Made by a program: the position numbers and the translations under genes
Notes under the pieces: generated by a model
The model's database searches: none
Told to the model about the DNA's origin: nothing
Seen by the model: the letters and a program-made list of their open reading frames with translations, nothing else
Shown: positions 20,091 through 31,866 of the stretch, piece by piece
Layout: each line of letters starts with the position of its first letter
How positions within the stretch are numbered: the stretch's first letter is position 1
DNA from: Nitrosospira multiformis
GTDB lineage: Bacteria; Pseudomonadota; Gammaproteobacteria; Burkholderiales; Nitrosomonadaceae
Length of the DNA stretch: 64,000 nucleotides
Assembly (NCBI RefSeq): GCF_900103165.1
Contig: NZ_FNKY01000001.1
Coordinates: 1,488,001 to 1,552,000 of the forward strand
Reading direction: 5' to 3'

Positions 20091-21038
20091 ATGAGTCACA
20101 CATTATATGAAGCTTCTGTCCTACGTGTGCAGCGCTGCGAGTTGGCTGTTCCGGGATCGAACCCGGGTATGTTTGAGAAAGCGATGAAAAGCGGCGTGGA
20201 TTTCATTTTTCTTGATCTTGAAGATGCGGTCGCTCCCGATGACAAAATAAAAGCACGTAAAAATGTAATCGAAGCGCTCAATGATCTTGATTGGAAAGGT
20301 CATGGCGTAACAATCTCAGTGCGTATAAATGGTCTGGATACGCAATTTATGGTTCGCGACGTAGTTGATCTGGTCGAACAAGCGGGCCACAGAATTGATA
20401 CCATTTTGATTCCAAAAGTAGGGGTTTATGCTGATGTCTATATGGTGGAGGCCATGCTGAATCAGCTGGAAATGCAACAGGGGCTAAAGAATAGAATTGG
20501 TACTGAAGCGCTGATTGAAACTGCCTTGGGCATGGCTAATGTAGAGGATATTGCCCGTAATGGCGTATCGGGCCGTCTCGAAGCGCTGCATTTCGGTGTG
20601 GCCGACTACGCTGCCAGTAATCGTGCCAGAACGACGAATATTGGCGGACTCAATCCGGATTATCCAGGCGATCAATGGCATGCCGCCATCAGTCGTATGA
20701 CAGTTGCCTGCCGTGCCTATGGCCTGCGTCCTATAGACGGCCCCTTTGGCGATATTAAGGATCCCGATGGTTATAAACTGGCGGCTAAAAGAGCCGCTGC
20801 GTTGGGTTGTGAAGGCAAATGGGCTATCCATCCGTCACAAATTGTGCTCGCAAATGATGTATTCACACCGCCTGCCGGGGAAATTGAGAAAGCGCACCGT
20901 ATTCTGGCCGCGTTAGCGGAAGCGGCGGCTCAAGGCAAGGGAGCGGCTGCGCTGGATGGTCGATTGATTGATGCTGCCTCGGCAAGAATGGCCAACAACG
21001 TCGTTAAAATGGCAGAAGCAATCGCTGCAAAAACCTGA
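20091..21038 (+). CDS. mcl: Malyl-CoA lyase (HpcH/HpaI, CitE-like)
   Basis: 315 residues. It reversibly splits malyl-CoA into glyoxylate and acetyl-CoA. The TIM-barrel signature includes RCELAVPGSNPGMFEKA (CoA-binding N-terminus), FIFLDLEDAVAPDDK (metal-binding Glu/Asp), RINGLDT, GTEALIETALGMAN and GKWAIHPSQI. Immediate neighbours encode malate-CoA ligase, which makes malyl-CoA lyase far likelier than a citrate lyase beta subunit. AGGAGG precedes the ATG. Together the three enzymes interconvert malate and glyoxylate plus acetyl-CoA, a serine-cycle or glyoxylate-salvage module. Confidence 0.85.
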   Translation: MSHTLYEASVLRVQRCELAVPGSNPGMFEKAMKSGVDFIFLDLEDAVAPDDKIKARKNVIEALNDLDWKGHGVTISVRINGLDTQFMVRDVVDLVEQAGHRIDTILIPKVGVYADVYMVEAMLNQLEMQQGLKNRIGTEALIETALGMANVEDIARNGVSGRLEALHFGVADYAASNRARTTNIGGLNPDYPGDQWHAAISRMTVACRAYGLRPIDGPFGDIKDPDGYKLAAKRAAALGCEGKWAIHPSQIVLANDVFTPPAGEIEKAHRILAALAEAAAQGKGAAALDGRLIDAASARMANNVVKMAEAIAAKT

Positions 21039-21305
21039 TAATGATATTTTAGCGACCCCCGGAACCACCCGTCTGTCGCGGCCCTTTCCTTCGGTGGTGG
21101 CTTCTACCGGCGCGGATGAGTGATGCATTGCCGCGCATGGCGAAGGAGTGTTACTCACGATGGAAATACGCATAATCCCGGACGCAGCGTCGGTTATTTC
21201 CGGTTTGTCACTCGTTTCCGCGGTAACGGGCTGATTTGTTTATGGGTCCGATTAAGATTCAAGTGAATTAGAATTATTTTTTTCTTAAACAGTTAAGGTG
21301 ATGTA

Positions 21306-22496
21306 GTGGACATTCACGAGTATCAGGCGAAAGAGATTTTGGCAAAATATGGCGTTAAGATCGCAGAAGGTGGTTTAGCTTATAGTCCCGAAGAAAGTGT
21401 CCAGCGTGCCAGAGAGATCGAGGGAAATGTCTGGGTGGTAAAGGCGCAGATTCATTCCGGAGCGCGTGGTAAAGCGGGCGGCATCAAGATCTGCAGCACG
21501 CATGATGAAGTTGAAGAGGCTGCGGAAGAGCTGTTGGGAAAAAATTTGATTACCCATCAAACCGGGCCTGCGGGCAAGATTTGTTCAAGAGTGTATATCG
21601 AAGCGGGAACGGATATCGCTAAAGAACTGTATCTCTGTTTTTTGATTGACCGAAGCTCGGAACGCATCGTCATGGTTGGTTCCGCCCAAGGCGGAATGGA
21701 AATTGAGGAATTAGCTGAAACAAATCCCGGAGCAGTCAAAAAAATTTACATTGAACCTGCTGTCGGTCTCCAGGACTTTCAGGCGCGCGAAATGGCATTC
21801 TCATTGGGGCTGGAGGCTACGCAACTCATTCATGCCGTCAGAACTATAAGAGGCTGCTATCGTGCGTTGCGCGACCTTGATGCAAGTATGCTGGAAATCA
21901 ATCCGTTGGTTATCACCGGTAGCGGCGAATTAATCATACTGGATGCCAAGATGAGTTTTGATGACAACGCTCTGTTTCGCCGTCATGAGATTGCCGAGTT
22001 GCGGGATAAAACCCAGGGAGATTCCCGAGAGGTGGCGGCTGCGGACCATGGCCTTAGCTATGTGGGTCTGGATGGGGATATCGGCTGCATGATTAACGGC
22101 GCGGGTCTGGCCATGGCCACCATGGATATGATCAAGCTTGCCGGGGGTGAACCCGCGAACTTCCTTGATGTTGGCGGTGGTGCGTCCGCGGAGCGTACGG
22201 AAAAAGCATTTCGTCTGGTACTGGCTGACAAAGGTGTCAAGGCAATGCTGGTCAATATATTTGCCGGAATTAATCGTTGTGACTGGATCGCCGAAGGGGT
22301 CGTGCATGCGGTCAGGAATATCGATATGAGCGTCCCGCTGGTTGTGCGGTTATCAGGCACAAATGTTGAAGAGGGCCAGCGGATTATTGCTGAGAGCGGC
22401 TTGCCCATCATTACGGCAGGCACACTGGCGGAAGCGGCTGATAAAGTCGTCCGGGCTCGCAATGAAGTCGTTGCGGAAGAGAGTAAAGGAAAATAG
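21306..22496 (+). CDS. mtkA: Malate-CoA ligase (malate thiokinase) beta subunit
   Basis: 396 residues from GTG 21306. It is a homologue of succinyl-CoA synthetase beta: an N-terminal ATP-grasp domain ([36 protein letters not shown]), then LEINPLVIT and the C-terminal CoA-ligase domain with [10 protein letters not shown] and [11 protein letters not shown]. Adjacency to malyl-CoA lyase, rather than to TCA-cycle genes, argues for malate thiokinase. A succinyl-CoA synthetase role is the alternative. The stop codon abuts the mtkB start with no gap. Confidence 0.8.
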
Positions 22497-23384
22497 ATGG
22501 CAATCCTGGTTAATGAAAGTACACGTATCATCGTTCAAGGTTTCACCGGTAAAATCGGTACCTTCCACGCGCGGGATATGATTCGTTATGGGTCTAATGT
22601 CGTGGGGGGAGTTACCCCGGGCAAGGGTGGTCAGCGGCACCTCGATCTGCCTGTATTTAATACGGTGAAAGAGGCTGTACAACAGGTTGGGGCCGAAGCC
22701 AGCATCGTGTTTGTTCCGCCGGCATTCGCGGCGGATTCAATTATGGAAGCTGCTGACGCTGGCATTAAATACTGTGTGGCGATTACCGATGGTATTCCCA
22801 CTCAGGATATGATGACCGTCAAGAACTTCTTGCGTCGTTTTCCTGTCCAGGAAAGAATGGTTCTGACAGGTCCGAACTGTGCCGGAACAATTAGTCCGGG
22901 ACGCGCGATGCTGGGAATCATGCCTGGGCATATCTATATTCAGGGGAATGTTGGCATTGTCGGCCGTTCCGGCACACTGGGCTATGAAGCGGCTGATCAG
23001 ATGAAAATACTGGGAATCGGCATATCGACGTCGGTGGGTATTGGCGGCGATCCAATTATTGGTAGCTCACATCGTGATATTCTTGAAAAATTTGAAGAGG
23101 ATGCTGAAACCAAAGTAGTAATCATGATCGGTGAAATTGGCGGACCGCAAGAGGTTGAGGCCGGTATTTTCGCTAAGGAAAATATGGGCAAGCCGTTAAT
23201 TGCCTACATTGCAGGTTTAACCGCCCCAGAAGGCCGTCGCATGGGGCATGCCGGCGCGATCATTTCGTCGGCCGGAGAAAGCGCCGCGGAGAAAGTAGCC
23301 GTATTGAAGGAACTGGGCATCACTATTTGCCCGACTCCTGCCGCGATGGGTGACACTGTAGCAGCGGTATTGGCCAGGATGTAA
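22497..23384 (+). CDS. mtkB: Malate-CoA ligase (malate thiokinase) alpha subunit
   Basis: 295 residues, homologous to succinyl-CoA synthetase alpha. A Rossmann CoA-binding domain (IIVQGFTGKIGTFHARDM, GGVTPGKGGQ) is followed by the ligase domain with GPNCAGTISPG and the phospho-histidine loop GHAGAIISSAGESAAEK (His about 250). It starts immediately after the mtkA stop, so the subunits are made in equal amounts. Substrate assignment (malate rather than succinate) rests on the neighbouring mcl. Confidence 0.8.
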   Translation: MAILVNESTRIIVQGFTGKIGTFHARDMIRYGSNVVGGVTPGKGGQRHLDLPVFNTVKEAVQQVGAEASIVFVPPAFAADSIMEAADAGIKYCVAITDGIPTQDMMTVKNFLRRFPVQERMVLTGPNCAGTISPGRAMLGIMPGHIYIQGNVGIVGRSGTLGYEAADQMKILGIGISTSVGIGGDPIIGSSHRDILEKFEEDAETKVVIMIGEIGGPQEVEAGIFAKENMGKPLIAYIAGLTAPEGRRMGHAGAIISSAGESAAEKVAVLKELGITICPTPAAMGDTVAAVLARM

Positions 23385-23438
23385 GTCTTATGCGTAGCTG
23401 GTTTTTATCGGATGTGCTTGAGAGTGGAGGCTTAATAC

Positions 23439-23831
23439 ATGGCAATCTGGATGACGGCGCTAAAGATTATTCCATGGGCGGATGTGCTGGAGTCGGCACC
23501 GCATATCGTCAAAGCGGCAAAACGCCTCTTTTCGGCGACAAAGGCTGACGCAACCACCTTCGCGGAATCCTCAACAGAGTCTTCAGCTGCAACGGCCGGC
23601 AGCAGTCTTGCCAACCTGAATAAACGAGTCCGTCTGTTAGAGGCAAGGCTCGTTGAATTGAGCGATGAACAAAAATCGTCTACTGAATTAATCAAGTCGC
23701 TTGCCGAACAAAACGCGCTTGTTGTCGAAGCCATCGAAGTATTTCGAGTCCGGATAAAGATTCTGCTTACTCTCTGTATCGTGCTGATCGGCGTGCTGGC
23801 TAGCCTGGTATTCTGGCTAGTGATGAAGTAG
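23439..23831 (+). CDS. Small tail-anchored coiled-coil protein, unknown function
   Basis: 130 residues, no family recognised. Residues 1-35 are mixed (MAIWMTALKIIPWADVLESA), a Ser/Thr/Ala-rich linker follows (about 36-56), then a heptad-like helix (about 58-100, LNKRVRLLEARLVELSDEQK) and one C-terminal membrane helix (about 108-128, ILLTLCIVLIGVLASLVFWLVM). GGAGG lies 10 nt before the ATG. It is 54 nt after mtkB and may share its transcript. Topology suggests a membrane-tethered coiled coil facing the cytoplasm. Confidence 0.65.
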   Translation: MAIWMTALKIIPWADVLESAPHIVKAAKRLFSATKADATTFAESSTESSAATAGSSLANLNKRVRLLEARLVELSDEQKSSTELIKSLAEQNALVVEAIEVFRVRIKILLTLCIVLIGVLASLVFWLVMK

Positions 23832-24169
23832 ATGAGAACCTGAAAACCTGATGAAGCATTCGAGTACGCATAAAACTATTTTAAGTGATAACGAGAAAAG
23901 GGTTTCTGCGTTTTCATTTCCGGTGGTTGATTGTATGGGGTAATTGAAGCGATGATCGTGGTACCAGAAAGAGTCGTAGTACTGGTGCTACCTGTTTACA
24001 CAAACCAGAGCTAAAGTACGGGCACAATAAAATTGTTTTAATATAAAAAATAGATGTCTTTGTCCCAGGCGGGGACAGAACAGAGAAGATCATGGGGATA
24101 TCCCGTGCATTACATTGCCGCAGCCAAACTTGCGGTGCTTTATGGACCACGGAAAAAAGGAGAAGAGAG
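23832..24169. other. haoA upstream region
   Basis: 338 bp with no supportable gene. It contains the conserved element at 23960-24029 and then an A/T-rich run (24030-24055). GGAG at 24159-24162 serves haoA. The haoA frame stays open upstream to 24092, but the protein family starts at 24170. Confidence 0.65.
23960..24029 (+). promoter_or_regulatory. Conserved upstream element, haoA copy
   Basis: A 70-bp segment starting GGTACCA aligns without gaps to 27120-27189 upstream of cycA; by hand count 55 of 70 bases are identical. The best-conserved blocks are GGTACCA, TACTGGTGCTACC, GTTTA, AACCAG and GTACNGGCANAAT. The last block carries the likely -10 (CAATA here, TAATT at cycA) with no good -35, suggesting an activator-dependent promoter. 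It ends 140 nt before haoA. Confidence 0.6.
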
Positions 24170-25879
24170 ATGGTTGTCAAGCTTGGGCTGAGGCTCATAA
24201 CGCTGACATGCGGGGCGCTGCTGGCGGCGTCTTCATGGGCGAACTTTCCCAGCGTCCCGAAGGAGATGTACAAAGCGCTGAACCTGGAACAAACGGCCAC
24301 GCCCAAGGAACTGCATGAAGCGGTGACCAAGCGCTACAAGGACCCGGCACAAGGGGCGGGACGTGGGACGTTGGCGCAGTACTGGGAACCGGTACCGTAC
24401 AGCATGTACATGGACCCGGCCTCATTCTACAAGCCACCGACCTCGATGAAGGAAGTGGCGGAGCGCCAGGAATGCGTCAAGTGTCACACGGACGAATCGC
24501 CGGTGTGGGTGAATGCGTGGAAGAAGAGCACGCATGCCAACCTGGACAAAGTGCGCAACCTCAAGCCGGACAGCCCGATCTACTACAAGAAAGCCAAGCT
24601 GGAAGACGTGGAGAAGAACCTGCGCTCCATGGGACGGCTGGGCGCGACCGAGAAGCTGAAGGAAGTGGGCTGTATTGACTGTCACGTCGACATCAACACC
24701 AAGAAAAAAGCCGACCACATGACTGAGCTGCGCATGCCCACGGCTGACGTCTGCGGCACCTGCCACCTGCAGGAATTTGCCGAACGCGAATCCGAGCGCG
24801 ACACCATGATCTGGCCGAACAAGCAATGGCCGTCGGGACGGCCCTCGCACGCGCTGGACTGGAAAGCCAACGTAGAAGTTGCGGTATTTGCCGCCATGCC
24901 GCAGCGCGAGATCGCTGAAGGCTGCAGCATGTGCCACACCAACCAGAACAAATGCGACTCCTGCCACACCCGTCACGAATTCTCCGCGGCCGAATCGCGC
25001 AAGCCCGAAGCGTGCGCCACCTGCCACAGCGGGGTTGACCACAACAACTGGGAAGCTTACTCCATGAGTAAGCACGGCAAGATCGTCACCATGATGGGCG
25101 ACAAATGGAACTGGGAAGTCTCACTCAAGGACGCCTACTCCAAGGGCGGCCAGACCGCCCCGACCTGCGCGGGCTGCCACTTCGAATATGAAGGCAAATA
25201 CAGCCACAACGTCACCCGCAAGATACGCTGGGCCAACTACCCTGCCGTACCTGGCATCGCCGAGAACATCAACAGCGAATGGTCGGAAGCGCGCCTGGAC
25301 TCCTGGGTCAAGACCTGCACCTCCTGCCACTCCGAGCGTTTTGCCCGCTCCTACCTGGAATTCATGGACAAAGGCACCCTGCACGGCCTGGCCAAATTCA
25401 AGGAAGCGCACAACGTCGCCGAGCAACTCTACAAGGATGGCCTGCTCACCGGGCAGAAGACCAACCGTCCGGCGCCGATGGCACCGGATAAGGAAATGTT
25501 CGCCGGCTTCACCCAGCTCTACTGGTCCAAGGACAACAACCCCGCGGCGATCGAACTGAAAGCGCTGGAAATGGGAGAAAACGACCTGCCCAAACTGCAC
25601 GTCGGCCTGGCCCACGTCAACCCGGGCGGCTGGACCTACACCGAAGGCTGGGGACCGATGAACCGCGCCTACGTCGAAATCATGGACGAAAACACCAAGA
25701 TACGCGAAATGGCGGCACTGCAGGCACGGGTAGCCAAAATGGAATCGAAACGCACCAGCCTGCTGGATCTTGACAGCAAGGACGACAAGCTCTCGCTGGG
25801 CGGTCTGGGCGGCGGCATGCTGCTGGCCGGCACCCTCGCGCTGGCTGGCTGGCGCCGGCGCGAGAAAAGCGGGCATTGA
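24170..25879 (+). CDS. haoA: Hydroxylamine oxidoreductase (octaheme cytochrome c)
   Basis: 569 residues. This periplasmic trimeric enzyme oxidises hydroxylamine and passes electrons to c554. A signal peptide ([20 protein letters not shown]) is followed by eight CXXCH heme sites at about 102, 168, 195, 252, 262, 282, 333 and 383. The fourth is the expected P460 site, and Tyr490 in [16 protein letters not shown] is the probable cross-linking tyrosine from the adjacent subunit. The C-terminus adds a glycine-rich hydrophobic helix ending WRRREKSGH, a possible membrane anchor. ATG 24170 follows GGAG. Third codon positions are strongly G/C-biased relative to flanking genes. The genus usually carries more than one nearly identical copy of this cluster. 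Confidence 0.98.
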
Positions 25880-27072
25880 CCGCCTCCTCCGCCACAACCC
25901 CCTCCCCCGCAGCACGGGGAGGGCTGGGAACTAAACTCCTCCCGTCACTGGGCATCCTCCTGGTGACGGGAGGTTTACTTTTACTCATCTGGTTTGCCTG
26001 GCTCTGGTTCAACCCGGCGCCCGCACCCTACCGCTACACCCTGGTCAAGGAAGGAGCTAGCACCCAATTTGGCCCGCTGGGCCTCGATGCCTGGCCGGAC
26101 CTCACCGTCGCCCAATATGAAATCCACGCCGACGGCGTGAACGATCCCATCGCCCTGGCCACCACCGCCCGGCGCGGTGCGACCCCGCCCATCCTCATCA
26201 GCTGGGAGAACCGCAGCAGCGAACTGCTCATCTCCCTCGACAGCAAACTCAATGAACTGACCGCGCTGGCTGCCGCCATCGACAAGTATGCGGCCAAGGA
26301 CGCGCGCATCCTGGCGTGGTGGGACACCTCGCGCCAGATCAAACTGCTGGCCGGGCGCGACACCCTGTTTACCCGGCACCTGGGCGAACCCCTCATCCTC
26401 CCCTTGCCCTGGCAGGCCTACAGCGACGCCGTCCGTCACTACGAAGACCAATTCTGGGGCGCCCCGGCCTCGGCTGACGAACAGCGTAACTTCCAGCACT
26501 TCGTCGACGCCCTCATCGCCGAGCCCGTCAAGGGCGCCGCCCTCCTGCGCCAACTGGCCGGCCTGCAGGACAGCGCGGGCAAGACCCCGGACCAGGCCCC
26601 CTCGGAAGCCTACATCGTCATCCACGTCACCGACCTCTATAAACTGGGACTGATGCGCCCCGAGCAATTCGACATCACCTACAAGCACTTCCCCATGGAA
26701 GGCAACATGCACGGCATGATCGGCTACCTCAAGAAATGGATGCAGGAAAACAACTTCGCCACCTACACCCTGCAATCCCTCTCCGACAGCATGGTGCGCG
26801 GCTACTTCCTGCGCGACGAAAAAAGCAGCCACAGCCTCCTGGCGCAGATGCTGCCCTTCACCAACTCCATGCCGCTGGACCTGACCGTCCTGCAACTCAT
26901 CTACCAGCAGGGCGGCTACTGGGTCTACAAAATCCCCTCCGCCGCGGACGCCGCGGCGGCACCCTCCACTCCCGCCCCCGCTGACGCCGCCGGCGCCCAC
27001 ACCGCTCCCCACTCTGACACCGCCCCCGCCCCGGCCGCTCCCGCCCCGGCCGCTCCCGCCCCCGCCTCCTGA
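25876..27072 (+). CDS. haoB: HaoB, membrane-anchored protein of the hao cluster
   Basis: 398 residues from TTG 25876, overlapping the haoA stop by 4 nt (TTGA). One N-terminal membrane helix (about 22-45, [25 protein letters not shown]) precedes a soluble domain, probably periplasmic. The last 50 or so residues are low-complexity Ala/Pro ([14 protein letters not shown]) encoded by a short tandem repeat near 27035-27065. It has no heme motif. HaoB is found only next to haoA in ammonia oxidisers; its role is not established. A 7-bp hairpin spans its stop codon. Confidence 0.92.
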
Positions 27073-27078
27073 GGCGGG
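27061..27078 (+). terminator. GC-rich hairpin across the haoB stop
   Basis: CCCGCCT / AGGCGGG forms a 7-bp stem with a 4-nt loop, spanning the haoB TGA. No U-tract follows, so it is more likely an attenuating or mRNA-stabilising hairpin than a full terminator. Confidence 0.35.
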
Positions 27079-27119
27079 CCAGGCTGGTTGACCGAGGGCG
27101 CACGCGCGGCGGTACCAGT

Positions 27120-27189
27120 GGTACCACAAAGAGTGATGGTACTGGTGCTACCCGTTTAGCGCAACCAGCGATACAGTACCGGCATAATT
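27120..27189 (+). promoter_or_regulatory. Conserved upstream element, cycA copy
   Basis: The second copy of the element at 23960-24029. GGTACCA, TACTGGTGCTACC, GTTTA, AACCAG and GTACCGGCATAAT are retained. An extra GGTACCA at 27111 precedes it. It lies 55 nt before the cycA ATG, consistent with cycAB having its own promoter besides read-through from haoAB. Confidence 0.6.
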
Positions 27190-27244: not shown

Positions 27245-27952
27245 ATGCGCCATTCCCTGACACTTGCCCTCGCCGCTGCCGCCATGTTTGCGCTGCTATC
27301 CGGCAGCGCCTCCGCACAATCATTTGAAGGCCGCAAGAAGTGCAGTTCCTGTCACAAGAGCCAGGCCGAATCATGGAGCCAGACGGCGCACGCCAAGGCC
27401 ATGGACTCGCTCAAGCCCAACACCAAGGCTGAGGCCAAGAAAAAGGCCAAGCTCGACCCCAAGAAGGACTACACCAAGGACAAGGACTGCGTAGGCTGTC
27501 ACGTCGACGGCTGGGGCAAGGAAGGCGGCTACACGGTTGAGGACCCCAGCAAATTCACCAGCGGCGTCGGCTGCGAATCCTGCCACGGCCCGGGCGCCAA
27601 GTATCGCGGCATCCACCGCAAGGCGGGAGCGGCCTACGAGAAATCGAAGAAGACCGCGCCGCGTTCGACCCTGGCGGAAGCGGGACAGGACTTCGCCTTT
27701 GAAGAATCCTGCAACGCCTGCCACCTGAACTATGAAGGCTCGGGCTGGAAGGGTACCAAGAAGCCCTACACCCCGTTCACCCCGCAAGTGGACAAGAAAT
27801 ACACCTTCAACTTCGACAAATACGTCAAGGACGTCAAAGCCATGCACGAGCACTACAAACTGGACGGCACCTTCGAAGGCGATCCGAAGTTCAAGTTCCA
27901 TGACGACTTCCAGTCCACGGCCAAGGTCGGCGAGAAAGGCTCGGAGGACTGA
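27245..27952 (+). CDS. cycA: Tetraheme cytochrome c554
   Basis: 235 residues. This periplasmic carrier takes electrons from HAO and hands them to cM552. A signal peptide ends SGSASAQS. Four CXXCH sites follow: CSSCH, CVGCH, CESCH and CNACH. The body is Lys-rich, fitting a basic c554 that docks on acidic HAO. ATG 27245 is chosen because GAAGGAG lies 7 nt upstream and the signal peptide starts there; the frame is open earlier, to 27188. The stop overlaps the cycB ATG by one base (TGATG). Confidence 0.97.
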   Translation: MRHSLTLALAAAAMFALLSGSASAQSFEGRKKCSSCHKSQAESWSQTAHAKAMDSLKPNTKAEAKKKAKLDPKKDYTKDKDCVGCHVDGWGKEGGYTVEDPSKFTSGVGCESCHGPGAKYRGIHRKAGAAYEKSKKTAPRSTLAEAGQDFAFEESCNACHLNYEGSGWKGTKKPYTPFTPQVDKKYTFNFDKYVKDVKAMHEHYKLDGTFEGDPKFKFHDDFQSTAKVGEKGSED

Positions 27953-28557
27953 TGGGAATACGCGCGGGCGGCACCCTGCTCACGGGTGCCTTGCTGGGGG
28001 TAGTCATGGTAGCGGTGGTATTCGGCGGCGAGGCCGCCGTCTCCACCACCGAATTCTGCACCAGCTGTCACTCCATGTCCTATCCGGCGGAGGAGCTCAA
28101 GACCTCCTCGCACTATGGCGCCCTGGGCGCCAACCCGGGCTGCAAGGATTGCCACATCCCGCAGGGCTTCAAGAACTTCCACCTGGCGGTGGCGACGCAC
28201 GTGGTGGATGGGGCGCGCGAACTGTACCTGGAATTTGCCAACGACTACTCCACGCTGGAGAAATTCAACGAGCGCAGGCTGATCATGGCGCACGATGCGC
28301 GCATGAACCTGAAGAAGTGGGACAGCAACACCTGCCGCGAATGCCACAAGAACCCGCAGCCGCCGGGGGCTGATGCCAAGGCCGCGCACAAGAAGATGGA
28401 GACCGAAGGGGCCACCTGTATCGACTGCCATCAGAACCTGGTGCACAAGGAAGTCGCCGAGACCGACCTCAATGCCAGCCGCAAGGAAGGCAAAATGGTC
28501 CTCAAGCCTGAAAAGAAGGATAAGGACGACGAGGAGGAGGAAGAGGAGGAGGGGTGA
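27952..28557 (+). CDS. cycB: Tetraheme cytochrome cM552, NapC/NirT family
   Basis: 201 residues. A membrane quinone reductase that passes electrons from c554 to ubiquinone. An N-terminal helix (about 8-25, LLTGALLGVVMVAVVF) anchors the protein. Four hemes bind CTSCH (36-40), CKDCH (64-68), CRECH and CIDCH, in NapC/NirT spacing. The tail KDKDDEEEEEEEG is unusually acidic and encoded by a run of GAG/GAA codons. It is translationally coupled to cycA. Confidence 0.96.
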   Translation: MGIRAGGTLLTGALLGVVMVAVVFGGEAAVSTTEFCTSCHSMSYPAEELKTSSHYGALGANPGCKDCHIPQGFKNFHLAVATHVVDGARELYLEFANDYSTLEKFNERRLIMAHDARMNLKKWDSNTCRECHKNPQPPGADAKAAHKKMETEGATCIDCHQNLVHKEVAETDLNASRKEGKMVLKPEKKDKDDEEEEEEEG

Positions 28558-29101
28558 TTCGGCCTGACAGTATTCCGGCTTAATGGATAAGGTTTATCAG
28601 TCCAGATGCGGTTTCCCGGTAATGGTAGGCCGCATGTAATTCTGCGTTGCCACGTGTTGATGTCTATCTTTGCCCGGAATCCAACGCGGTGTATCCGTAC
28701 CAATGGTGCTGCGGATGCTACACGCAGTCAATATTCAGCTTACTTGAAGTTTTTCAATGAGTCGGCAAACTCGTCATACCGTATGACGCTGGTCGAGTGT
28801 TATTAAAAAATTAATCAGAGATTTTGTGAATAACCTGGATCATCGGAGAGACTTGGCTTGCCTGTGAGTGACTGACGGTTTTAACGGTAAATCAGATGGC
28901 TTCATAACAATTCACAATTTTGTCGAAAAGGGATCTTTGGTCACTTCTTTGATTTAATCTTCTTATTTATTAGCGCTCAGATGGGTTTCAGGTTAGTGCT
29001 TCTCTCAATGTCACGAGACGGTGAATGTCACGAGACTGTAACATATCCATCGTAATATCTAGCCTCCTCGAAAAACCCAACTTTTACTGAGGCATTTGTT
29101 T
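28558..29101. other. Non-coding region between cycB and pstC
   Basis: 544 bp without a supportable gene; notably no pstS. A weak inverted repeat ATGCGG / CCGCAT (28606-28635) may mark the end of the hao transcript. The Pho-box promoter lies at 29009-29058. Confidence 0.65.
29009..29058 (+). promoter_or_regulatory. Pho-box-like PhoB-dependent promoter of pstCAB
   Basis: Half-sites TGTCAC (29009), TGTCAC (29026) and TGTAAC (29037) are seen. The last two are 11 nt apart, as in a Pho box of direct repeats. Ten nt after the last half-site is TAATAT (29053-29058), a good -10, with the Pho box in place of a -35, as in known PhoB-activated promoters. pstC starts about 44 nt downstream. Confidence 0.65.
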
Positions 29102-30034
29102 GTGACCACGGAGTCTCCCACTGATACCAATCAGCCCGGAAAACTTGGGTATAGTTACAGTCGTCACTTGGGTGAACGTTTCATTGAGGCCACGCTATTC
29201 CTGATGGCGTTTGTTTCAGTTGCAATTACGATCGCCATCGTGGTGATGCTGGTGAAAGAGTCGTTTGTGTTTTTTGAACACGTTCCGCTCTGGGATTTTC
29301 TCACCGATACCCAATGGACACCGCTGTTTGACGATGCGCACTACGGCATACTCCCATTGATCTCCGGGACCGTCGTGAGTTCCGCTGTGGCGCTATCGGT
29401 AGCGATTCCCATGGGTACAATAACTGCCATATATCTTTCCGAATTCGCACCTTTTGCCGTGCGTGAAATCGCCAAGCCATTTCTTGAGCTGCTGGGTGGT
29501 GTGCCAACAGTGGTTTACGGTTATTTCGCGTTACTGTTCGTTACACCCCTGCTGCAACAAATTTTCCCCGAGTTACCCGGCTTCAGTCTGCTTTCCGCCG
29601 GCCTGGTGATGGGCATCATGATTATTCCCTATGTCAGCTCCATGGCGGAGGACGCCATGCGTGCGGTGCCGATGCACCTGCGCGAGGGCTCCTATGCGAT
29701 GGGCGCCACGAGACTCCAGACCGCTATCCGGGTAGTGATGCCCGCCGCCTTTTCCGGCATTGCCGCCGCCTATATTCTTGGTATCTCCCGTGCGGTAGGA
29801 GAGACCATGGTGGTGGCGATAGCTGCCGGCATGCAGCCGAACCTCACATGGAATCCAATGGAGCCAGCGGCCACAATCACCGCCTATATTGTGCAGGTAA
29901 GCTTGGGCGATCTGCCCCATGGCAGCATTGGCTATCAGACCATTTTTGCCGCCGGACTTACATTACTGCTATTAACGCTGGTATTCAATGTTATTGGCCA
30001 CCTGCTACGCAAGCGGTATCGCGAGATTTATTGA
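29102..30034 (+). CDS. pstC: Phosphate ABC transporter permease PstC
   Basis: 310 residues; one of two inner-membrane channel subunits of the high-affinity phosphate importer. About six membrane helices are visible, starting at residue 28 (ATLFLMAFVSVAITIAIVVML). The EAA-like loop EGSYAMGATRLQTAIRVVMP contacts PstB. GTG 29102 is preferred, since GAGG lies 9 nt upstream; an in-frame TTG at 29096 is only 3 nt from it. pstS, which normally precedes pstC, is absent. Confidence 0.92.
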   Translation: MTTESPTDTNQPGKLGYSYSRHLGERFIEATLFLMAFVSVAITIAIVVMLVKESFVFFEHVPLWDFLTDTQWTPLFDDAHYGILPLISGTVVSSAVALSVAIPMGTITAIYLSEFAPFAVREIAKPFLELLGGVPTVVYGYFALLFVTPLLQQIFPELPGFSLLSAGLVMGIMIIPYVSSMAEDAMRAVPMHLREGSYAMGATRLQTAIRVVMPAAFSGIAAAYILGISRAVGETMVVAIAAGMQPNLTWNPMEPAATITAYIVQVSLGDLPHGSIGYQTIFAAGLTLLLLTLVFNVIGHLLRKRYREIY

Positions 30035-30136
30035 GTCTTATAGGAATTCTGTATTTAACCAGCCTGGTTTTTTCTGCCGCTTGATTTGCGGTCTTCTAAT
30101 GAATATACCTTACTGATTTTTCCCCGGATCCGGTTG

Positions 30137-31063
30137 ATGAGAGATGAAAAAAACCTGAACGAGATTCGTGCCATCATCGCACGTCACAAGCTTTGGGATC
30201 TCATTTTTATGATTATCGGGGTACTCGTGCTGATGATTGCGATACTGACATTCATGGCATTATTCTCCCGCATGCTCATCGACGGGATGCCGCGTTTGTC
30301 ATGGGATTTTTTTAGTTCTTTCCCATCGCGCCGCGCGGGTTCGGCGGGTATATTGTCTGCCTGGGTCGGAACGACGCTGGTCATGATGGTGACGGCGGTG
30401 GCTGCCGTGCCGATGGGTATTGGAGCGGGCATTTATCTGGAGGAGTATGCATCTAAAAACCTCCTCACCGAGATTATTGAAATTAATGTGACCAATCTTG
30501 CAGGTGTGCCGTCCATTATCTATGGGCTGTTGGCGTTGAGCCTGTTCGTGCATCAGTTGGGATTCGGACAGAGCATTTTGTCGGCGGGCCTCGCGCTGGC
30601 ACTATTGATCCTGCCAGTTGTGATCGTTGCAACCCGTGAGGCCATACGTTCGATTCCCGTGGCTATCCGCGAGGGTGCGTATGCACTTGGGGCAACCAAG
30701 TGGCAAACTGTTTCTGATCATCTTATTCCGTATTCCGCAGCCGGTATTTTGACGGGCGTCATTATCGGTCTTGCCCGTGCGATTGGAGAAACAGCGCCCA
30801 TCATCACCATTGGCGCGCTGACTTTCATCGCATTCCTGCCGCCGTCCCCGATAACAGCGGAATTTCCCTTTTTGTCTTTTGATTGGCTGATGGCGTCATT
30901 CACAGTGATGCCGATCCAGATGTTTAACTGGGTGTCGCGGCCGGAGGAAGAATTTCAGGCCAACGCAGCGGCGGCGGGACTTGTTCTGGTAGTGATGACG
31001 CTCACCATGAACGCATTAGCTATTTATTTGCGCTATCGCATGCGAAAGAATATCAAATGGTAG
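30137..31063 (+). CDS. pstA: Phosphate ABC transporter permease PstA
   Basis: 308 residues from ATG 30137; the second channel subunit of the phosphate importer. Six hydrophobic helices, the first [21 protein letters not shown], and the PstB-contact loop [21 protein letters not shown] are seen. [16 protein letters not shown] is characteristic of PstA. The frame is open upstream to 30086, but MRDEKN is the natural start, about 100 nt after pstC. It overlaps pstB by 7 nt. Confidence 0.93.
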
Positions 31064-31866
31064 AGAATTTCCCGCGAGACAACTCCGTTGCGGATATCAC
31101 ACCGATTCCGTGCAAATCCGAAGTCAGAGATCTGAGTTTTTATTATGGCGCATTTAACGCGCTTAAAAACATTAACATGACGTTGCATGAAAAACAGGTC
31201 ACCGCATTGATCGGTCCGTCCGGCTGTGGCAAATCCACTTATCTTCGCTGCTTCAACCGTATGCATGACCTCTATCCAGGGAATCGTTATGTAGGCGAGA
31301 TTATTCTGCACCCGGATAACGTCAATATTCTTTCCCGTAACGTGGATCCGATCGAAGTGCGAATGCGTGTCAGTATGGTCTTTCAGAAACCCAACCCATT
31401 TCCAAAATCCATCTATGAAAATGTGGCTTATGGCCTGCGAGTGCGTGGGGTAAGGCAGCGCGCGGTGCTGGATGAGAAAGTGGAACAGGCATTGCGCGAC
31501 GCGGCATTATGGGACGAAGTGAAAGATCGTTTGAAACAGCTTGCTTACAATCTTTCGGGTGGCCAGCAGCAACGTTTGTGTATCGCCCGGGCGCTCGCCA
31601 CGGATCCTGAAATCCTCTTATTCGACGAGCCTACTTCGGCGCTTGATCCTATCGCCACCGCCAGCATCGAAGAGCTTATCGCTGACCTGAAAGACAAGGT
31701 TACCATTCTCATCGTTACTCACAATATGCAACAGGCGGCGCGTGTATCGGATTACACCGCCTATATGTATTTGGGTGAAATCATCGAATTTGATGTGACC
31801 GACACTATTTTCATCAAGCCTAAAAATAAACAGACGGAAGATTACATTACCGGTCGTTTTGGTTGA
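31057..31866 (+). CDS. pstB: Phosphate ABC transporter ATPase PstB
   Basis: 269 residues. It powers phosphate uptake through PstCA. Walker A GPSGCGKS, signature LSGGQQQR, Walker [14 protein letters not shown] and the switch histidine in VTHNM are all intact. The PstB-specific [12 protein letters not shown] and [15 protein letters not shown] are present. Its start overlaps pstA. phoU, normally the next gene, is missing: the following 281 bp are non-coding, and then comes tpiA. Confidence 0.97.

Follow-up and report, generated by a model that had tools for sequence, protein, structure and literature searches.

Are the two halves of hydroxylamine oxidation in Nitrosospira multiformis under common control and, if they are, which regulator reads the shared signal? 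The question is raised by a stretch of 64,000 nucleotides (nt) of its genome (G000:C1:1488001-1552000, hereafter the window, part of the 3.5-Mb host genome G000), in which a sequence-only reading had noticed a 70-bp element upstream of both haoA, coding for hydroxylamine oxidoreductase, and cycA, coding for cytochrome c554. It had been proposed from this that one regulator, or one duplicated promoter, controls both halves of the pathway. The explanation towards which we lean, although only slightly, is that the element is a cycA promoter-operator module, that it was copied before one haoA, and that a MocR-type regulator encoded beside hao genes reads it.

The element and its copies in the host genome

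The two window segments (23960-24029 and 27120-27189) are identical at 55 of 70 positions without gaps, as had been counted by hand, and this similarity is far from what composition alone would give. The best 70-mer match between the haoA and cycA intergenic regions is 56, while 2000 mononucleotide shuffles of one of these regions reached at most 38 (mean 31.7), and the haoA copy, used as a genome-wide query, recovered the cycA copies at E 3.5e-11. The core, TACTGGTGCTACC, is indeed identical in both copies, and the distances given for them are right: the start codons of haoA (24170) and cycA (27245) follow at 140 and 55 nt. The conserved unit extends somewhat further upstream, by 2 nt in the haoA copy (GTGGTACCAG) and by 9 nt in the cycA copy (GGTACCAGTGGTACC).

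The host genome carries three hao clusters (haoA-haoB-cycA-cycB), which are 99.9% identical across the 4.4 kb between the haoA ribosome site and the end of cycB, and whose four proteins are 100% identical between clusters. Four copies of the element accompany them: one before each of the three cycA genes, identical in all three clusters, and one before a single haoA, that of the window. Upstream of position 24157, blastn gave no match between the window haoA and the regions that precede the other two haoA copies. In a genome-wide search of the host to E<=10, which is a heuristic first look, only these four hao/cyc sites were reported. The sequence-only reading had suggested looking for copies before amoCAB, nirK and the other hao genes; in that search none was found at amo, nirK or unrelated loci, where many copies would have spoken against its proposal, and the other two haoA copies lack the element. 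The proposal of joint control survives in a narrower form. A cis-regulatory unit is shared and probably has a single reader, and both of the suggested options may hold at once, as a duplicated promoter that contains an operator, but the arrangement is not general, since it covers three of three cycA genes and only one of three haoA genes.

Within the window, the cluster lies on the forward strand. The name of haoA (24170..25879), which has its own promoter region in this copy only, rests on gene order with haoB and cycA and on the multiheme sequence, as the one NCBIfam model obtained, for hydrazine dehydrogenase, scored below its cut-off. The product of haoB (25876..27072) matches NCBIfam TIGR04392 with 372 bits (cut-off 200) and has a Pro/Ala-rich low-complexity tail (window 26940-27072) past the end of this match at residue 353 of 398. 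That of cycA (27245..27952) matches NF043010 with 440 bits (cut-off 400), and cycB (27952..28557), for a NapC/NrfH-type quinone reductase (cM552), is named from its position after cycA, the napC/torC-type models scoring below cut-off. Downstream of the cluster lies a pst phosphate-transport set (pstC, pstA and pstB by eye; window 29096-31866). Directly before the element-bearing haoA (window 20091-23831) are genes that we read as malyl-coenzyme A lyase/citrate lyase beta-like and malate-coenzyme A ligase (mtkAB)-like, followed by a small open reading frame with a hydrophobic end. This order (mcl-mtkA-mtkB-orf130) recurs in three of the 11 element-bearing loci examined (G003, G016 and G019) and is absent in the other eight; thus, the wider locus is not conserved.

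Anatomy of the element and its putative core promoter

Relatives were grouped into the Nitrosospira group (23 genomes), a sister genus with small genomes, Nitrosomonas-type genomes and a further group. An alignment of 36 elements from the Nitrosospira group (A1) takes one element per class (haoA or cycA) per genome, leaving out two rows of G011 (near copies of G012), the G014 element and a second element of G009; a model built from these 36 (R1) was used for the profile search of the family genomes. Among the 19 haoA-class elements, the haoA match is directly seen for ten, while the other nine lie near contig ends; in all nine an ATG follows a GGAG-type ribosome site, and the first peptide is HaoA-like in eight of them, that of G010 being unlike.

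All parts of both window copies are read on the forward strand. In the haoA copy, a putative left operator block, GTGGTACCAGAAAGAGT (23958..23974; A1 columns 7-23), shows 94.8% mean pairwise identity without gaps in the 36 rows and is followed by a linker of 6 nt (23975..23980) whose sequence varies (59% mean identity) and whose length is constant. The putative right block, ACTGGTGCTACC plus TGT (23981..23995), forms an imperfect dyad, ACTGGT-GCT-ACCTGT, and reaches 97.3% mean identity in columns 30-41. Further downstream stand a core-promoter-like block, AACCAGAGCTAAAGTA (24003..24018; columns 52-68, 86% mean identity), which holds a TAxAxT hexamer (TAAAGT), and the -10-like CACAAT (24023..24028). 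The cycA copy is built in the same way, with the left block GTGGTACCACAAAGAGT (27118..27134), the linker GATGGT (27135..27140), the right block with the imperfect dyad ACTGGT-GCT-ACCCGT (27141..27155), the core-promoter-like block AACCAGCGATACAGTA with TACAGT as its TAxAxT (27163..27178), and the weakly conserved, -10-like CATAAT (27183..27188). It has, in addition, an upstream half-site, GGTACCA (27111..27117), which is kept in cycA copies and is missing from most haoA copies; in the window this half-site falls in inverted repeat arms (27111-27126 and 27137-27152; 75% complementary according to the repeat finder).

Columns 7-64 are free of gaps in all 36 rows, so that the internal spacing is rigid, while the ATG lies 133-294 nt from the start of the element for cycA (344 nt in G020, where an assembly gap intervenes) and 114-284 nt from it for haoA. 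Such a combination is as expected for an operator and promoter. A second element of G009, outside the alignment, changes one column that is invariant within it (AGAG to AGTG). In the sister genus, the right-block dyad is perfect, ACTGGTTCTACCAGT (ACTGGT-TCT-ACCAGT). A coding leader was considered as well and rejected: the three codon positions have summed variabilities of 1.58, 1.94 and 2.36 (columns 7-66), with no clear codon pattern.

The two blocks are inverted relative to each other, and a stem of eight pairs is predicted from the alignment. The element could, then, be an RNA structure of the 5′ leader (an attenuator, a stability hairpin or a riboswitch) formed by GTGGTACCAG...CTGGTGCTAC, and transcription from haoAB may also run on through the cycA copy. 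However, none of the eight pairs changes on both sides, a weak test given the few variable columns, and no Rfam match was found up to E 0.1. Besides, a -10-like sequence lies 3′ of the stem, and the start codon follows at distances that differ by about 160 nt or more. By eye, the sister genus argues in the same direction, as its right block has a G to T change (GGTGCTACC to GGTTCTACC) that would disrupt a pair of the stem, while the next change, C to A, makes the block's own dyad perfect. In view of the lack of covariation and of any Rfam hit, the RNA structure was rejected as a very improbable explanation.

The 3′ end of the element had been described as a block, GTACNGGCANAAT, with a likely -10 and no -35. 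The second half of this description agrees with our results, as no sigma-70-like pair of hexamers (TTGACA-like and TATAAT-like, 16-18 nt apart) was found around either copy. The first half is less secure, because the block ends in a weakly conserved part: columns 69-78 are only 56% identical. Eleven nt upstream of CAYAAT lies the hexamer TAxAxT (TACAGT or TAAAGT), which would be at least as good a -10 candidate, since its T, A, A and T do not vary in any of the 36 rows. In Nitrosomonas-type genomes, TTTACA-N16-TA(C/G)AAT precedes cycA in seven of the nine genomes read (not in G027 and G030), whereas both Nitrosospira -10 candidates are 11 or 22 nt from the corresponding TTTANA, a spacing that fits neither. 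As there is no sigma-70 pair and the position of TTTANA suits neither candidate, we infer that the promoter of the element depends on an activator.

A simpler view would be that a plain core promoter has been kept for its strength and duplicated to one haoA, with no dedicated regulator involved. The proximal part can be aligned by eye with the cycA promoter region of the Nitrosomonas type (TTTACANAAAC..CGATA..TACAAT), as such a view would have it. By contrast, conservation is highest in the two upstream blocks and not in the -10/-35 region, no sigma-70-like pair was found, and the sister haoA copies already have ordinary promoters; we consider this view improbable. These ordinary promoters are well defined. 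The other two haoA copies of the host carry TTTTCTTGACA-N17-TAGGCTA (TTGACA-N17-TAGGCT), and among the element-free haoA copies of the six long-contig genomes of the Nitrosospira group (G000, G001, G003, G004, G012 and G021), 11 of 11 have TTTTCTTGACA, a spacer of 17 or 18 nt and TAGGCT (TAGTCT once), within 240 nt of the ATG in ten cases and at 248 nt in one (G004).

Two further observations concern these leaders. Those of the host's other two haoA copies share by eye additional motifs (AGGGTAG and one that is ATAGTCTAGACGGA-like), also seen in G003, which are possibly a second control element. In the G004 copy whose TTGACA promoter is 248 nt from the ATG (G004:C1:1247700-1248900), the final stretch of the leader resembles by eye that of the element-bearing copy, and it is possibly a recombinant leader.

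Range among relatives and history

With the cycA copy as query, the element was found in 21 of the 23 genomes of the Nitrosospira group, and with the model R1 in 22, only G015 (80% complete) being missed. Five genomes with three assembled clusters have three cycA copies and one haoA copy each, and G004 has two and one. In the sister genus the element occurs in five genomes, always before cycA only; four others (G029, G032, G041 and G044) have no convincing hit and no assembled cycA, with weak hits in G029 (E 0.0037) and G041 (E 0.1). Among the five cycA promoters read in the further group, a trace was seen only in G037 (R1, E 4.4e-5), which is at best a decayed element. The cycA of G037 itself matches in two pieces, one of them with internal stops. 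A search of Nitrosomonas genomes had also been suggested; in the Nitrosomonas-type genomes the operator was not found, the best hit having E 0.0075 and none reaching 1e-4. Weak hits in G029 and G092 have no hao or cyc gene nearby, look repetitive by eye and were discarded; the remaining hits at E 0.03-0.1 in the three groups outside the Nitrosospira group were discarded unread.

An exact scan of 84,980 species with a degenerate pattern gave 35 stretches, whose titles are without exception Nitrosospira, Nitrosovibrio, Nitrosomonadaceae or Nitrosomonadales. Transfer by plasmids was likewise rejected, as only two chance-level matches, to Nitratiruptor plasmids (E 0.8), were obtained. These searches bear on the idea of a mobile or repetitive element, similar to repetitive extragenic palindromes or miniature inverted-repeat transposable elements, that landed by chance beside two hao genes. 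It would agree with the non-homologous flanks in which the two window copies sit, but the sites in the host are hao/cyc sites only, the searches across the Nitrosospira group gave one further weak hit (G003, E 0.0086), and together with the scan of species these results refute the idea in practice, so that we give it next to no credence.

How old is the duplication? The identity between haoA and cycA elements is 72.6% within genomes (16 genomes) and 72.4% between genomes, and this equality indicates that the two lines are separate and old; cycA elements resemble each other more (81.8%) than haoA elements do (73.2%). Most likely, the haoA copy split off before the radiation of the Nitrosospira group and has escaped overwriting ever since, even though the coding clusters were kept identical. 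In the sister genus there are hits at cycA alone, which makes the cycA site the likely origin of the haoA copy.

A MocR-type gene beside hao as candidate reader

Two GntR-family proteins were found in the host genome, one of the UTRA type and one of the MocR type, with no FadR-subfamily regulator among them. The MocR-type protein combines a winged helix-turn-helix domain (PF00392, 55.2 bits, cut-off 27, residues 22-84) with a class-I aminotransferase-like domain (PF00155, Aminotran_1_2, 81.2 bits, cut-off 19.7, residues 154-450), and its structural relatives in the PDB are GabR and 7pq9. The lysine expected to form the Schiff base with pyridoxal 5′-phosphate (PLP), in the motif FSKSMG, is invariant in 14 of 14 orthologues. 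The gene lies outside the window (G000:C1:3076059-3077540, or 3076041-3077540) and starts some 150 nt after cycB of another hao cluster. It stands between cycB and the convergent amoB of an amoCAB cluster in each of the six long-contig genomes of the Nitrosospira group; the adjacent hao cluster carries the haoA element in four of them, but not in G000 and G003. In the sister genus it follows cycB in five of eight loci, the other three being at contig ends, and no amo gene was seen beside it. For Nitrosospira briensis C-128, the published paper lists hao genes F822_0873-0876 and amo genes F822_0880-0878, with one locus tag between them that would correspond to the MocR gene.

Orthologues (E<=1e-60) were detected in 14 of the 125 family genomes searched, six in the Nitrosospira group and eight in the sister genus, and in no genome of the Nitrosomonas type or of the further group. 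The full element and, at this threshold, the MocR gene were found in the same two genera only. In a tree of CycA proteins (27 rows without G037, midpoint-rooted for drawing), the further group joins these two genera (100/99), which form a group of their own (93/86), and the Nitrosomonas type stands apart; since the further group is placed with the two genera, its decayed element goes with the absence of the regulator.

The proposed mechanism is as follows. The element would be the promoter-operator module of cycAB, in which a two-block operator (GTGGTACCAGAAAGAGT - 6 variable nt - ACTGGTGCTACC) is placed at a fixed distance upstream of a core promoter lacking a usable sigma-70 -35. A second copy, placed before the haoA of one hao cluster ahead of the radiation of the genus and retained since then, would bring one haoAB operon under the control of cycAB, the other haoA copies remaining on ordinary promoters. 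A MocR dimer may bind the inverted TGG/CCA half-sites and recruit the polymerase to the -35-less promoter, thus activating it, in answer to a ligand that meets the PLP-binding lysine. The inverted half-sites of the cycA copy and of the stem predicted from the alignment fit a boxed MocR operator, without proving it.

Several results weigh against this assignment. The match between element and regulator over two sister genera is a single co-occurrence and, as such, statistically weak. In 17 of the 23 genomes of the Nitrosospira group no MocR orthologue was found, and there were only remote matches (best E 5.5e-28 at 27% identity). These 17 genomes are split into 20-450 contigs. A gene placed in 1.9 kb of DNA flanked by two multi-copy clusters could have ended up on a very short contig that the data lack, and we take these drafts as uninformative rather than as losses. 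The architecture is not fully regular either: the left half-sites adjoin each other with no spacer (TGGT-ACCA) and the right ones do not (TGGT-GCT-ACC), the sequence AAAGAGT is unexplained by dyad symmetry, and the repeat finder, with the settings used, detected no inverted arms in the haoA copy. Moreover, no element copy was seen by eye before the MocR gene. MocR genes are often divergent from their targets (PMC5320631), whereas this one lies downstream in the same direction and, in two genomes (G000 and G003), comes after a cluster whose haoA lacks the element. Finally, the protein scores above the cut-off of the PdxR equivalog model (NCBIfam NF052282, 424.3 bits against 320), a name that points to vitamin B6, and it may govern other genes.

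The last point leads to an alternative, in which the promoter-operator module is the same but its reader is another protein, global or of a different family, while MocR governs, for instance, vitamin B6 metabolism. Apart from the PdxR score, AAAGAGT is, in our judgement, not a typical MocR feature, and the right block is similar to TGGT-N3-ACCA, the form of operator used by FadR-type GntR proteins. Nevertheless, just one GntR protein was found in the genome beside MocR, that of the UTRA type, and no FadR-type one. No linkage of the MocR gene to pdxST or PLP metabolism was observed, its direct neighbours being cycB and amoB in six of six loci of the Nitrosospira group and cycB in five of eight of the sister genus, where the far side was checked for amo and hao only. 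As the lineage ranges of element and MocR gene also coincide, we regard another reader as rather unlikely, although it is a possibility to be taken seriously.

Reading by MocR would have partial parallels in known systems. According to PMC5320631, MocR proteins such as PdxR, GabR and TauR combine a GntR-type winged helix-turn-helix with an aminotransferase-like PLP domain carrying a Schiff-base lysine, exert PLP-linked control, and bind operators made up of two to four boxes, direct or inverted, most of which contain TGT or TGG. The protein described here shares this architecture, but its target would be a chemolithotrophic electron-transfer module, and its gene is co-directional downstream of cycB (between hao and amo in the Nitrosospira group) instead of divergent. 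In Alcaligenes faecalis, the MocR-family DnfR governs the dnf (dirammox) genes, which handle hydroxylamine, as stated in PMC12575085, and PMC11440038 names the search for its ligand as a next step. DnfR is, by description, alike in being a MocR-family regulator tied to a hydroxylamine pathway, but its host is a heterotroph and its target enzymes (DnfABC) are unrelated. A third case is Nitrosococcus oceani, for which Table 1 of PMC3772326 lists a GntR gene, Noc0891, just before haoA (Noc0892), hence next in number to haoA-haoB-cycA-cycB of another ammonia oxidiser; unlike the gene described here, it is upstream of hao and belongs to a gammaproteobacterium. The same source reports separate promoters for haoA and cycAB of N. 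europaea. Accordingly, cycA has a promoter of its own there too, with a proximal block that can be aligned by eye, but the two-block operator is absent.

A bolder version of MocR control concerns the signal. Hydroxylamine attacks aldimines (Schiff bases) formed by PLP with lysine, giving the PLP oxime, and it is therefore conceivable that the hao-linked MocR is a direct hydroxylamine sensor. The attack of NH2OH would convert the protein, through the oxime, into a form that activates at the element and raises cycAB and one haoAB as the toxic intermediate reaches the cytoplasm. DnfR of Alcaligenes would be a parallel case. We consider this version a long shot. In a narrow literature search, no regulator was described as sensing hydroxylamine in this way, and none as hydroxylamine-responsive in ammonia oxidisers. 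The portions of the Nitrosospira literature on MocR, GntR and hydroxylamine that were covered describe neither the element nor this regulator; no priority is claimed, and a 2005 paper on the hao clusters may mention the cycA promoter.

For the biology of these ammonia oxidisers, the analysis defines a precise candidate operator and indicates that the three near-identical hao clusters are not equivalent, as one of them has a different switch for haoA. There is a single candidate regulator, whose gene holds the same place between hao and amo clusters in every long-contig genome read of the Nitrosospira group, and each of these can be tested in vitro, with no need of genetics in a slow-growing host. 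If the sensing of hydroxylamine were true, it would be a new principle of chemical sensing and would be useful for the control of nitrification in soil.

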